DNA of 64,000 bases from an uncultured Bacteroidales bacterium (GTDB taxonomy: Bacteria > Bacteroidota > Bacteroidia > Bacteroidales > WCHB1-69). The stretch is from positions 1 to 64,000 of the forward strand of contig ONAB01000021.1 of the NCBI GenBank assembly GCA_900315705.1. The letters run 5' to 3'. Position 1 is the first letter of the stretch. The number at the start of each line of letters is the position of its first letter. Under the pieces are notes generated by a model. That model saw only the letters and a program-made list of their open reading frames with translations. It was not told the DNA's origin and ran no database searches. The position numbers were made by a program, and so were the translations under genes. Shown here one piece after another: positions 38,590 to 50,147 of the stretch.

Positions 38590-39603
38590 TTATCTGTTCA
38601 ACGCCTCCTCCACCTGACGGTACAGGTCGTCGAAATCGCCGTTGTTTTGGAACACATAGTCAGCCATCTCCATACAGCGCCCCACATTCTGGTGGTTGGG
38701 GTCGGTGGATGACATCTCCCGTTGTTCGTTTTCTATGAACGTCTCGAAGGATACGTGGTCGGTCTCGGAATTGCGGTTCACAATGCGTTCGTAGCGGATT
38801 TTGGGGTCGGCATCGACAGCAAAGAGCAAGAAATGTTCGTTTTTGCGGAGGGACTCCACCTCACCAGGGGTGCGCACGCTCTCGATGACGGCGTTGGAGC
38901 CGTCGGCCTCGGCCTGGCGGTAGAGCTCGTCGGTGATGAAGGAGGGCGAGTGCTTGGCGCGCAGGTCGTTGGCCACCTCCACGAACGTGTCGCGGTTGAG
39001 TTCCATTCCCCGGCGCTTGGCCTCTTCCGTGAGGTAGCCGCGCACCGAATAGTGCTTGAAACCGTAATGCTGGATGAGATAATCCACGATGGTGCCCTTG
39101 CCCGCACCCAACGTGCCCGTTATGCCGATAATTTTCATAGAATTGTCTGTTTTTGAAAGGTTTGTGTCCATATTTCCCGTTGTCATCTTGGTGACATAAA
39201 AGGTGAAATTCCGGTTTATTTTGTGGATTTGTGTCTTCAATACCAGAAAATAGACCAGCACGAAGAGCAATGATACGAGCACGCTCACCAGTTCATTGTG
39301 TGAAAGCAGGTAGCAGCCGATGAAGGCGGCCAGCAGGACAACAAAGGGTATAGCGTAAGCGATGAGCACAGCCTTGGCGCCCGCGTTGCCGCGCAACACA
39401 AGGTTGACCCGCTCGCCCACCCTGAACGAGTGGTTGCCCTCCACATTAGCGGTGACTATTTCCTGTCGGTGGTCGGAAGGAATGCAGATGCTTTTGGCGT
39501 GGCAGCCGGCGCACGCCGAGCTGACGATGATCTCCACATCCACGGTGTTGCCATTCACCGCCCGTACAATACCTTCTTTACAAATGGTAGATTGCTCGCT
39601 CAT
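38590..39603 (-). CDS. Fusion: RseC/MucC-like membrane protein + P-loop nucleotide kinase-like ATPase
   Basis: 337 residues in one open frame from ATG 39603. Residues 1-140 are RseC-like: GIVRAVNGNTVDVEII, the Cys cluster ACAGCHAKSIC, VGERVNLVL and two membrane helices (about 75-95 and 103-120). Residues 156-337 are a P-loop kinase-like protein: IIGITGTLGAGKGTIVDYL (Walker A), SVRGYLTEEAKRRG, NAVIESVRTPGEVESL, VDADPKIRYERI. The linker contains two Met codons (ATG 39171 and 39138), so the kinase could also be made separately. RseC proteins modulate redox or sigma-E systems; the kinase resembles dephospho-CoA/nucleotide kinase-type AAA proteins. The ATG sits 22 bases after a -7 element, which rules out longer starts. 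Its stop lies 3 bases from the convergent transglycosylase stop. Confidence 0.82.
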   Translation of the reverse strand: MSEQSTICKEGIVRAVNGNTVDVEIIVSSACAGCHAKSICIPSDHRQEIVTANVEGNHSFRVGERVNLVLRGNAGAKAVLIAYAIPFVVLLAAFIGCYLLSHNELVSVLVSLLFVLVYFLVLKTQIHKINRNFTFYVTKMTTGNMDTNLSKTDNSMKIIGITGTLGAGKGTIVDYLIQHYGFKHYSVRGYLTEEAKRRGMELNRDTFVEVANDLRAKHSPSFITDELYRQAEADGSNAVIESVRTPGEVESLRKNEHFLLFAVDADPKIRYERIVNRNSETDHVSFETFIENEQREMSSTDPNHQNVGRCMEMADYVFQNNGDFDDLYRQVEEALNR

Positions 39604-39624
39604 ATTCTGACGATTTCTAGGTTG

Positions 39625-39632
39625 CAAAAATA
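39625..39632 (-). promoter_or_regulatory. -7 promoter element TATTTTTG for the RseC-kinase gene
   Basis: The minus strand reads CTATTTTTGCAACC; the ATG at 39603 follows 21 bases downstream. The position selects this start over an upstream in-frame TTG or ATG. Confidence 0.6.
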
Positions 39633-39935
39633 GTAAAAAAAAACGACGGTACAATGATAACCCTATCTCCAACTTTACCGCTATTATTTGCAGCATAATG
39701 GAAATTTTATTCTATTCTATAATTATAAATTTAACAATTAAAATATATTTCTTTTGAAATAATAAACGAACAGTGTTGATTATCAATGCGATTTAAATAT
39801 TATATTTTTATCAATTTTTAAATTAAAATTTATTTATATTTGCATTATAAAAATAACCGTTAGAAAAAATGTTATGATTATCATCAATGAAGCATATTAT
39901 TCACCCCTATTCTTCCTTACACATAGAATTTTCCA
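39633..39935. other. AT-rich spacer without genes
   Basis: About 300 bases of very AT-rich sequence, unlike the GC-richer genes on both sides. It holds the 14-mer TGTTGATTATCAAT (39774-39787) and a TATATTTG at 39835-39842 that fits TAnnTTTG and could drive rightward transcription toward the transposase. No coding frame is supported. Confidence 0.6.
39835..39842 (+). promoter_or_regulatory. Possible -7 element TATATTTG upstream of transposase
   Basis: TATATTTG fits TAnnTTTG, but it lies about 410 bases before the transposase ATG and has no clear -33 element, so the link is uncertain. A transcript from here would contain the palindromic repeats as leader. Confidence 0.3.
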
Positions 39936-40224
39936 TTTTGTGTTGTCCCTGCGGGACATAGGGAAAACCCGCGGGGGCGATGTTCTACCGAGCTACCGCC
40001 CCTAACGGGGCTGCACGGAAGGGACACACCACACACACACCGCAAACACCACGTCCCGCAGGGACGAAAGCCCGGTAAAAACGACGCAACCGCAACCCCA
40101 ACGTCCCGACAGGGACGAAAGCCCGGTAGAAAAGATGCAACCGCAACCCCAACGTCCCGACAGGGACGAAAGCCCGGTAGAACGACGCAATCACAACCGC
40201 AATCACAACGTCCCGCAGGGACGG
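39936..40224 (+). repeat. REP-like palindrome block upstream of transposase
   Basis: The block opens with a ~105-base segment (palindrome GTCCCTGCGGGAC at 39945-39957, then CCCGCGGGGGCG and GCCCCTAACGGGGC). It is followed by three ~30-base units at 40051, 40101 and 40152 and a partial unit at 40208. Each unit has a GTCCC/GGGAC stem followed by GAAAGCCCGGTAGAA. Units recur every ~50 bases with spacers that are nearly alike (rich in CGCAACCCCA). Confidence 0.85.
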
Positions 40225-40252
40225 CACAAAAAATAATTAAAACAACAAAACA

Positions 40253-40726
40253 ATGGAATCTTTAAGAAACAACACCTTCACTCAAATCCACCTTCAGGTG
40301 GTCTTCGCTGTGCAGAACAGAGATGCTCTTATCTCTGCTTCTTGGAAAAACCGATTGTACAATTATCTGGTCGCCATCATCCAAAACAACAAACACAAGG
40401 TTCTTGCTATCGGAGGAACGGCCGACCACGTCCACATTCTCTTTGGTATGCGTGCCTCGCAATCCCTTTCAAATTTGATGAAAGATGTCAAAGGATGCTC
40501 GTCCAAATGGATTAATGAAAACAAATTGTCGAATGGATGGTTCTCCTGGCAGGAAGGATACGGGGCATTTTCTTATGCTAAAAGCGATCTCCCCGCCGTC
40601 ATCCAATACATTAATAATCAAGAAGAGCACCATAAAAATCAAAATATGATTGATGAATACAAGAATCTTTTGGAAGAAAACGAGGTTAATTACGATGAAG
40701 AGAAGATATTCAAAAAGGTTGAATGA
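40253..40726 (+). mobile_element. IS200/IS605-type single-tyrosine (HUH) transposase, REP-associated
   Basis: 157 residues. It has the start FTQIHLQVVFAVQNRDALIS, the His-hydrophobic-His motif in GGTADHVHILFG, and the catalytic-Tyr helix in PAVIQYINNQEEHHK. All three are hallmarks of Y1 transposases, which cut and rejoin single-stranded DNA next to hairpins. The gene appears complete and undamaged. It sits between two direct copies of a palindromic repeat block (39936-40224 and 40729-40921), the arrangement of REP-associated tyrosine transposases (RAYTs) rather than of a simple insertion sequence; no TnpB is present. A role in spreading or maintaining the surrounding palindromes is inferred, not shown. 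Confidence 0.9.
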
Positions 40727-40728
40727 TC

Positions 40729-40921
40729 TTTTGTCCCTGCGGGACAAGGAGAAAACCCGCGGGGGCGATGTTCTACCAAGCTACCGCCCCTAACGGGGCT
40801 GCACGAAAGGGACACACCACACACGCACGGCAACACCCCACGTCCCGATAGGGACGAAAGCCCGGTAGAAAAGAAGCAACCGCAACCCCAACGTCCCGAT
40901 AGGGACGAAAGCCCAGTAGAA
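40729..40921 (+). repeat. REP-like palindrome block downstream of transposase
   Basis: A near copy, in the same orientation, of the block upstream of the transposase: GTCCCTGCGGGAC, CCCGCGGGGGCG and GCCCCTAACGGGGC, then two ~30-base units at 40840 and 40891 with the GTCCC/GGGAC stem (loop GATA here) and GAAAGCCC-GTAGAA tail. Confidence 0.85.
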
Positions 40922-40938
40922 CAACACGACCACCACCG

Positions 40939-40988
40939 TAAATCGCAAATCGCAAATCGTAAACCGTAAATCGCAAATCGTAAATCGC
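40939..40988. repeat. Heptamer repeat AAATCGY (7 units)
   Basis: Seven tandem 7-mers (AAATCGC, AAATCGC, AAATCGT, AAACCGT, AAATCGC, AAATCGT, AAATCGC) run up to the stop of radA. The last unit overlaps its final bases. Confidence 0.85.
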
Positions 40989-40991
40989 CTC

Positions 40992-47266: not shown

Positions 47267-47385
47267 CGTAATTTTTGGGTTATGGCGTGCGAGGTGCGAT
47301 TTACGATTTGCGATTGTATCATAGACCGGAGACCGAAGACTTTTTTCGTAAGTCGCAAATCGCACGTCGTACATCGTACATTCCC

Positions 47386-47415
47386 ACGTCCCGCAGGGAC
47401 GGAAGCCCGGTAGAA
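47386..47415 (+). repeat. REP-like unit (solitary copy)
   Basis: A single copy of the ~30-base unit found around the transposase: GTCCCGCAGGGAC stem followed by GGAAGCCCGGTAGAA. It marks the 3' border of the truncated gene. Confidence 0.85.
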
Positions 47416-49675: not shown

Positions 49676-49749
49676 TAGAGCTGCCACATTGTAGAGCCGC
49701 CACAATGTGACGGCTCTACGACGATGATCCCACAATGTGGCGGCTCTAC
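49676..49749. repeat. Cluster of 19-base inverted repeats
   Basis: The motif GTAGAGCCGCCACAATGTG (49691-49709) overlaps an inverted copy (49701-49719) and pairs with another inverted copy at 49731-49749; a partial copy begins at 49676. The cluster can fold into alternative hairpins. Confidence 0.75.
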
Positions 49750-49792
49750 CTCGGCGGATATCCTCACAAACCTCGCACCTTGCAAATCCCCC

Positions 49793-49863
49793 GCGTCCCG
49801 CCAGGGACGGAAGCCCGGTAGAACGATGCGGCACTCCACGCACCGAAACGTCCCGCAGGGACG
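49793..49863 (+). repeat. REP-like units (one full, one partial)
   Basis: A full copy (GTCCC/GGGAC stem, then GGAAGCCCGGTAGAA) is followed ~25 bases later by a stem-only copy GTCCCGCAGGGAC. The ~50-base spacing matches that around the transposase. Confidence 0.85.
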
Positions 49864-50147
49864 ACACATTTTCTGTTATCCCTGATGGGACACGGACGTG
49901 ACAGGATGCAGTCAGTAGCATCTCTCCGAGATGCCGGGTGGCGGGTAGGCGCCCCATCACCACACTGCGTATGGTGTTAATTGCACTCCGTGCGTGCCGC
50001 CTCTCCGAGGCTGTATAAGTCTACGATCATACCTCGCACGTCGCATCCTAGACTTAAGACTTTAGACTGAAGACTTAATTTCTTAGTTTCTTAATTTCTT
50101 AATTACTATAGACCATAGACCGTAAATCAGGTAAAACGTTTTTTTCG

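Follow-up and report, generated by a model that had tools for sequence, protein, structure and literature searches.

A subclass 1.2 Y1 transposase of Bacteroidota and the tagged palindromic units that flank it

Results

A Y1 transposase stands between two direct palindrome blocks

The window analyzed here, a 64,000-nucleotide stretch of DNA from an uncultured Bacteroidales bacterium, contains an open reading frame of 157 codons on the forward strand (positions 40253-40726) whose 157-residue product is a Y1 HUH transposase. Its translation displays the motifs DHVH, WQEGY, and YINNQEEHH and matches the Pfam family Y1_Tnp with an E-value of 1.4e-24. The fold assignment draws on this match and on a sequence search of solved structures, in which the closest chains are 2xm3, which we take to be the ISDra2 TnpA, and the IS608 TnpA (2a6m), with E-values of 0.003-0.04. 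The neighboring frames were read by eye from their translations as radA and an RseC-like/kinase ORF; the latter is one open frame (38590-39696, reverse strand) comprising an RseC-like and then a kinase-like protein, either as a fusion or with overlapping starts. Visual inspection of the ORFs that overlap 36-45 kb of the window revealed no tnpB-like gene.

Two palindrome blocks in the same orientation flank the gene, one upstream (~39943-40223) and one downstream (40731-40922), both on the forward strand and both made of repeat families D1 and D2. The 103-nt block heads (39943-40045 and 40731-40833) are 93% identical, and the 106-nt block tails begin at 40046, 40097, and 40836. The repeated unit is a GTCCC(N3-4)GGGAC hairpin followed by a GAAAGCCCGGTAGAA tail, and the blocks hold tagged units, in which the hairpin is joined to a GAAAGCCCGGTAGAA-like tail, as well as untagged hairpins. 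An earlier sequence-only reading of this locus had described an intact transposase with an HVH motif and a tyrosine helix, without TnpB, set between direct palindrome blocks, and that description holds.

The upstream block opens with an untagged outer hairpin, GTCCCTGCGGGAC (39945-39957), found by the repeat and hairpin scan. It continues with a reverse-strand tagged unit that has a GCCCC/GGGGC stem and a GTAG tag (39983-40012, tail scan), a forward unit with the variant tag GTAA (40051-40080, tail scan), and two forward units recovered by both pattern and tail scans, GTCCCGACAGGGAC-GAAAGCCCGGTAGAA (40102-40131) and a further copy (40153-40182). An untagged inner hairpin (40210-40222; folding z-score -3.94) lies directly upstream of the gene and is matched directly downstream by a second untagged hairpin in inverted arrangement (40733-40745, pair I5). 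The tagged unit closest to the gene on the downstream side, again with a GCCCC/GGGGC stem, occupies the reverse strand with its tag toward the gene (40771-40800, tail scan), and two forward units follow, at 40841-40870 and 40892-40921 (pattern and tail scans), the last reading CAGTAG and thus retaining GTAG. When six stretches of the blocks were folded as single-stranded DNA, z-scores ranged from -1.66 to -5.27; the unit at 40102-40131 and its neighbor fold as two hairpins (z -3.23).

Searching the window for the tail, with one mismatch allowed, found 11 places, nine with a hairpin and two (26524 and 42561) without, as judged by eye. Among these are dispersed tagged units on the forward strand, one far from the gene (47386-47415, tail scan) and one (49794-49823, pattern and tail scans) beside a unit of another family. 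The latter, identified by the C20-type pattern, is a reverse-strand unit with a TTAACACC tag (49973-50003) and belongs to the family flanking a paralogous transposase gene on contig C20. Short satellite-like runs of GTAAATC/GCAAATC occur beside the downstream block (40933-40990) and beside a dispersed unit (~47330-47385). Another palindrome, near GTAGAGCCGCCACATTGTGGCGGCTCTAC, recurs beside dispersed units, at ~49710-49760 in the window and at loci L007, L009, L013, and L015.

Sequence comparisons place the enzyme in class 1

The NCBIfam IS200 model NF033573 scores 63 bits on the transposase and passes its cut-off of 55, whereas REP_Tyr_transpos scores 26.1 bits against a cut-off of 80. The Y...NP motif of class 2 is absent from the protein, which reads Y...Q..HH in its place (YINNQEEHH). 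In a 36-row tree, eight class-2 rows, including TnpA_REP (4er8, presumably the E. coli protein) and one protein of the window's own genome, split from the subclass-1.2 and IS200 rows with a support of 100/99. IS200 forms a long branch and subclass 1.2 appears as one group in just 5% of bootstrap trees; IS200 may sit beside or inside subclass 1.2. By these sequence comparisons the transposase is a class 1 enzyme on the IS200 side, of subclass 1.2, and not a RAYT, since it lacks Y...NP, falls below the REP_Tyr_transpos cut-off, and is separated from class 2 at 100/99. The RAYT identity proposed by the sequence-only reading is therefore set aside.

The classification of Quentin et al. 2018 (PMC6006769) describes subclass 1.2 as low-copy enzymes of ~150 aa from Bacteroidetes with DH[IV]H, WQ, and Y...Q..HH, and in motifs, length, copy number, and host this description matches the window enzyme. 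Its sequence features, with a length of ~148 aa, are all seen in the 157-aa transposase. Low copy number with divergent paralogs is likewise what the window genome displays. Four such genes are present, the other three being 29-33% identical to the window gene, and no near-identical copy was found in the genome, where the gene is single and its best other match is 33% identical. One Y1 match beyond the four genes came from a Pfam search of the same genome, and the class-2 model returned further weak matches. Class-2-type Y1 proteins lie at C34:3012-3296 (L302), C28:8092-8526, and C16:61184-61774, the C28 and C16 matches being weak; both branches of the superfamily thus occur in this genome.

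Matches to the transposase were found in 77 of 101 genomes. The first test set comprised 110 loci from among the matches listed, after exclusion of own-genome repeats (3 of 113), and all have a Y...HH-type motif except L041, a split gene; at nine loci the loose motif pattern caught an earlier stretch than Y...Q..HH. A 108-row tree resolves clade A with the window enzyme, clade B with the three paralogs of the same genome, clade C, and a few sequences outside these. The lists used for counting hold 50, 34, and 19 loci for A, B, and C (103 of the 110); list A, drawn by locus number, includes two split genes absent from the tree and omits L080, which is clade A by the tree. WQ is present in 41 of 50 clade A enzymes (nine unparsed) and in one of 34 clade B enzymes, 29 of which have WxxEY (two unparsed).

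Hairpins near the gene carry a tag at a fixed distance

The density of hairpins with a stem of at least 6 is 6.7 per kb in the 300 nt nearest the gene, compared to 1.4-1.7 per kb beyond 1 kb. To compare the two sides of each gene, we asked whether its two 500-nt flanks have a common 14-mer, at loci with at least 300 nt on each side. Such sharing is seen at 33 of 45 clade A loci, 29 of 30 clade B loci, and 13 of 17 clade C loci, against 2/98, 2/153, and 0/84 control windows, respectively; over all clades it amounts to 75 of 92 testable subclass-1.2 loci versus 4 of 335 controls.

Measured from the hairpin center, among 674 hairpins within 600 nt of a gene, GTAG starts at 16 nt in 85 cases and at 17 nt in 29, with 0-8 at other offsets. 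Distant hairpins (2-5 kb away) have it at 16 nt in 3 and at 17 nt in 5 of 554. Counted by hairpin, GTAG lies at 16-17 nt in 114 of 674 near hairpins (39 of 110 loci) versus 8 of 554 distant ones. The tag differs between clades. In clade A, GTAG at 16 nt occurs 78 times against 2.2 per offset, and in clade B, TAAC at 17 nt occurs 40 times against 2.3 per other offset, with ACCC and CCCC next, giving the tag TAACCCC. Tag and motif thus co-vary between these clades, WQxGY with GTAG and WxxEY with TAACCCC. Clade C enzymes have WQ and palindromes on both sides of the gene, yet no common tag was found for them.

Since the GTAG rule had been derived on the first loci, we tested it on others. The best 80 of 562 loci on named genome contigs, found with a search pattern that favors clade A, comprised three known and 77 new loci; their titles name Flavobacterium, Dyadobacter, Algoriphagus, Mucilaginibacter, Chitinophagaceae, Saprospiraceae, Balneolaceae, and Ignavibacteria, and some assembled genomes carry titles that name other phyla. 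At the 77 new loci, GTAG starts at 16 nt in 109 and at 17 nt in 6 of 406 near hairpins, versus 2 and 3 of 237 hairpins 1.3-2.5 kb away. By hairpin this is 113 of 406 near versus 5 of 237 far, with at least one tagged hairpin at 51 of the 77 loci. Fisher p values for the rule are 1e-22 in the first set and 1e-19 in the new set; hairpins within a locus are non-independent in both. With this unit finder, loci with no tagged unit within 800 nt numbered 18 of 50 in clade A and 13 of 34 in clade B, and 26 of the 77 new loci had none within 600 nt.

The canonical REP arrangement places GTAG immediately 5' of the hairpin, whereas the main tag here lies 3', at offset 16. A scan for GTAG alone gave a small 5' peak at offset 8 (13 of 674) and a broader rise at offsets 31-36, which fits neighboring units.

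The nearest tagged unit mostly faces the gene. In the first set this holds for 41 of 42 upstream and 32 of 40 downstream units, and in the new set for 28 of 33 upstream (p 7e-5) and, more weakly, 26 of 38 downstream (p 0.03). The hairpins around the gene are inverted but stand in arrays, several units per side. Among the matches listed, dispersed clade B neighbors within 300 nt of each other are convergent in 28 of 38 cases, divergent in 6, and on the same strand in 4, and most convergent pairs are spaced 172-212 nt or 49-51 nt apart. Ten clade B elements were picked from the listed matches and fetched; nine read hairpin, spacer, tag, inner palindrome, tag, spacer, hairpin, and L156 does not. 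Nine of the ten measure 98 or 219-237 nt.

Stem compensation is modest and flank sharing follows enzyme identity

For stem analysis we gathered 54 distinct units of the window-enzyme type by their tails, of which 52 retain at least 5 of 6 pairs at the predicted center. The mean is 5.22 of 6 pairs, compared to 4.72 when arms are swapped between units and the center is chosen anew (highest of 200 trials, 4.87). For 40 units from ten loci fetched by protein alone, the corresponding values are 5.35 and 4.71 (highest 4.95). Swapped arms that keep another unit's center had given 3.48 versus 5.22, and 17 of the 26 loci came from a stem-based search; because the re-chosen center narrows this gap, we retain the claim of covariation in a weakened form. 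Stem positions 5 to 7 show two to four standard pair types. Compensation in the stem exists but is modest, and the G-C core scarcely varies.

The sharing of flank sequence between loci was compared with protein identity after removal of 66 locus pairs whose outer flanks align; the pairs counted are non-independent. Below 30% protein identity, 13 of 1015 locus pairs share an inner-flank 14-mer. In steps of ten from 30 to 80% identity, the counts are 83 of 2858, 46 of 928, 72 of 549, 78 of 198, and 88 of 106, rising to 49 of 50 pairs at 80-90% and 8 of 8 above 90%. A cruder filter on the outer flanks gives the same trend, and paralog pairs within one genome share a flank 14-mer in 8 of 72 cases. 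Flank sharing follows enzyme identity.

Units are dispersed through the genome and its relatives

The window's own genome (2.996 Mb in 47 contigs, 97.6% complete) contains GTCCCNNNNGGGACGAAAGCCC with up to three mismatches in 25 places, versus one for a control pattern. Five of these lie at the gene and 20 elsewhere; of the latter, ~17 are convincing units by eye and three are chance-like. A looser pattern, GGNNCNNAAGCYYGGTAG, occurs in 22 places including the gene, with no control match. The units therefore exceed chance, and the genome-wide count that the sequence-only reading had called for bears out dispersal away from the gene. Most dispersed units read GTCCCNNNNGGGACGGAAGCCCGGTAGAA. Open frames of at least 150 codons lie over 6 of 15 dispersed units, compared to 573 of 750 random positions in the same genome.

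Across the 101 genomes the loose unit pattern is present in 30, with two control matches in total. Within the genus, all 11 genomes for which a gene of this clade was listed, whether intact, split, or fragmentary, contain it, as do 17 of the 30 genomes without a listed one; units therefore outlast genes, or draft assemblies miss the genes. A strict phylum-wide form of the unit gives 128 matches, gene loci included, versus 8 for the control in the 24 genomes of the named loci. Dispersed copies are few and their spread uneven, with matches in 14 genomes, none in 10, and 46 of the 128 in one genome.

The paralogs have patterns of their own. In the window's genome the C35-type pattern occurs in 5 places (3 at its gene), the C6-type in 3 (all at its gene), and the C20-type in 10 (2 near its gene). 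When 61 genomes were searched, the C35 and C20 patterns gave no control matches; the C6 pattern gave 9 matches versus 9 in the control and is thus uninformative beyond gene loci. A sequence of ~25-45 nt beside several C35-type dispersed pairs is kept across sites and genomes (L149, L150, L152, L158), and may represent a favored target site or belong to a larger element. A search by the left flank for an empty site of a C35-type doublet found the sole relative covering the junction (L190) occupied, and no target site was read.

Searched against Rfam, neither the blocks nor the window gave a match at or above a family's cut-off. The Flavo-1 RNA (RF01705) was considered as a name for the units and rejected, as its consensus differs from the unit. 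Flavo-1 matches are present at L244 (3115-3174), L250 (3172-3275), and L239 (453-533), and in the two Flavobacterium loci L244 and L250 they lie 156 and ~230 nt from the transposase gene.

The gene is mostly inherited and has sometimes moved

The comparison of orthologous loci, also suggested by the sequence-only reading, drew on 29 fetched loci of relatives, with the sequence after radA read by eye in 15 of the same genus. At 12 of these 15, radA is followed by the RseC-like gene with no such transposase gene or block between them; at the remaining three, the RseC-like gene was not seen adjoining radA. Two of the 12 gene-less sites (L170 and L172) bear palindromes of another family directly after radA, where the window's element lies, and the site after radA is a recurrent landing site.

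At another site, eight relatives have a common upstream flank of the gene, which is split in two of the eight. Within-genome protein pairs of at least 90% identity are rare (1 of 72, in G050, at 94%). Second copies also occur in G018 (90.6% over ~1 kb) and G007 (81% over ~0.7 kb), neither of which is among the 72 pairs, and the G007 match ends near the outer hairpins. Where computable among relatives, dN/dS is 0.03-0.21, indicating purifying selection. From the absent sites, common flanks, rare second copies, and dN/dS, we conclude that the gene is mostly inherited and sometimes moved. Domestication, as considered in the sequence-only reading, is not demonstrated by low copy number and purifying selection, given an insertion absent in 12 of 15 relatives and second copies at 81-94% in a few genomes.

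Discussion

REP/RAYT repeat systems are known mainly from Proteobacteria. We read the units, their tag distance, orientation, and dispersal, the clade-specific pairing with the enzyme, and the absence of the insertion in relatives as a REPtron-like system in which a class 1 Y1 transposase would act on cognate tagged hairpins, convergent with RAYT/REP, and assign this reading a probability of roughly 0.7. Counting against it are the loci at which the unit finder saw no tagged unit, the clade C palindromes without a clear tag, units in same-genus genomes with no listed gene, the small number of dispersed copies, the C6 pattern seen in the window's genome only at its gene, the weaker downstream orientation in the new set, the modest stem covariation, and the flank 14-mers common to 8 of 72 paralog pairs.

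HUH/Y1 enzymes cut and rejoin single-stranded DNA. Under the REPtron-like reading, the subclass 1.2 nuclease-ligase would recognize its own family of units, each a short stem-loop with a tag 16-17 nt from the center, GTAG in the clade of the window enzyme and TAACCCC in the sister clade. By analogy with related enzymes, it may bind the hairpins on single-stranded DNA, presumably of the lagging strand, and would cut at or near the tag through its tyrosine, the tag serving either as guide or as the place of cleavage, at a set distance from the hairpin. Such cutting would occasionally copy or move cognate units in trans, very rarely the whole gene element, possibly with some benefit to the host. 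The mostly inverted order of the units nearest the gene, [hairpin-tag> gene <tag-hairpin], has its counterpart in the sister clade, where the same inverted pairs form short dispersed elements that lack a gene. In the IS200/IS605 family, a guide 5' of the palindrome selects the cleavage site, and GTAG plays this role in REPs (PMC8266576).

RAYT/TnpA_REP enzymes of class 2 and their REP, BIME, and REPIN elements resemble this system in that a Y1 gene of low copy number stands amid palindromes of its own, copies of which are dispersed and often paired, with one enzyme per repeat family; the inverted pairs that define REPINs are seen in the clade B units among the matches listed. Unlike REPs, which carry their tag at the 5' foot, the present units have it 16-17 nt 3' of the center, and the sister clade has a different tag. 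The enzyme, too, belongs to another branch. A true RAYT with divergent REPs would explain the REPtron-like layout, the dispersed palindromes, and the low copy number, yet it is highly improbable given the Y...Q..HH motif, the 26 bits against 80 for REP_Tyr_transpos, the separation of class 2 at 100/99, and the side and distance of the tag, which depart from the published REP rule. What survives of the sequence-only reading is a Bacteroidota Y1 family with its own palindromes, low in copy, with dispersed units that are not the enterobacterial REP. The GTAG- and CGTC-tagged REPs of Di Nocera et al. 2013 (PMC3733652) similarly join a palindrome to an unpaired end tag but differ in its spacing and side, and the abstract and one passage of that paper mention Bacteroidetes in connection with the CGTC type alone.

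An ordinary IS200/IS605-type insertion sequence with hairpin ends, whose decayed or internally deleted copies would be the dispersed units and which would have no lasting partnership with them, is rather unlikely. It would account for the class 1 placement and the IS200 score above cut-off, the inverted units around the gene, the window site without the gene in 12 of 15 relatives, and the second copies in G050, G018, and G007. In the sequence-only reading, grouping with a mobile, multi-copy IS200 was to count against a RAYT/REP-like system; the enzyme does group on the IS200 side but is present in one copy. Although the IS608 and ISDra2 TnpA proteins are its nearest solved structures by sequence, here we find arrays of several units per side and low copy number, with no tnpB seen and no multicopy insertion sequence with identical ends. 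More units than gene copies, the single within-genome pair in 72 at or above 90% identity (a count outside which the G018 and G007 copies fall), the common upstream flank in eight relatives (the gene split in two), and purifying selection also argue against it.

Palindromes can terminate or stabilize transcripts. Regulatory RNAs or terminators of the transposase or neighboring genes, rather than substrates of the enzyme, could thus explain the palindromes, in keeping with the scarcity of long open frames over the units (6 of 15 versus 573 of 750). We consider this improbable, as such elements would not call for a fixed tag distance, for units that mirror each other about the gene or lie far from any Y1 gene, or for flank sharing that tracks enzyme identity even where outer flanks fail to align, and no Rfam family scored above cut-off in the blocks or window.

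The REPtron-like reading bears on what has been published for these enzymes. The table in PMC6006769 enters "no" under REP for subclass 1.2, and its text, as far as it treats this subclass, gives it no known substrate and links REP systems with other classes; here the enzyme is flanked by and paired with tagged palindromes. That entry, a descriptive column rather than a sequence criterion, does not describe the loci seen here. The automatic REP search outlined in that paper looked for GTAG or GTGG 0-2 nt 5' of a hairpin, a position other than that of the tag in these units. A limited literature search, mostly of titles and abstract openings, found no published report of REPs for subclass 1.2, and passages on the repeats of P. 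gingivalis (PMC5771137) gave no lead.

The system likely works like RAYT/REP but has its origin in another branch of the superfamily. With less confidence, we lean toward a broader view in which Bacteroidota and near relatives have a second, independently evolved REP-type system built on class 1 Y1 transposases, with a fixed 16-17 nt ruler and with stems and tags that diverge with the enzyme, so that one genome could run several pairs together. The tag rule predicts exact oligonucleotides, and the WQxGY/GTAG and WxxEY/TAACCCC pairs make recognition directly testable. A tagged-hairpin partner for class 1 would give subclass 1.2 enzymes a substrate, would show REP-like partnerships to have evolved more than once, and would explain many of the intergenic palindromes in Bacteroidota genomes.
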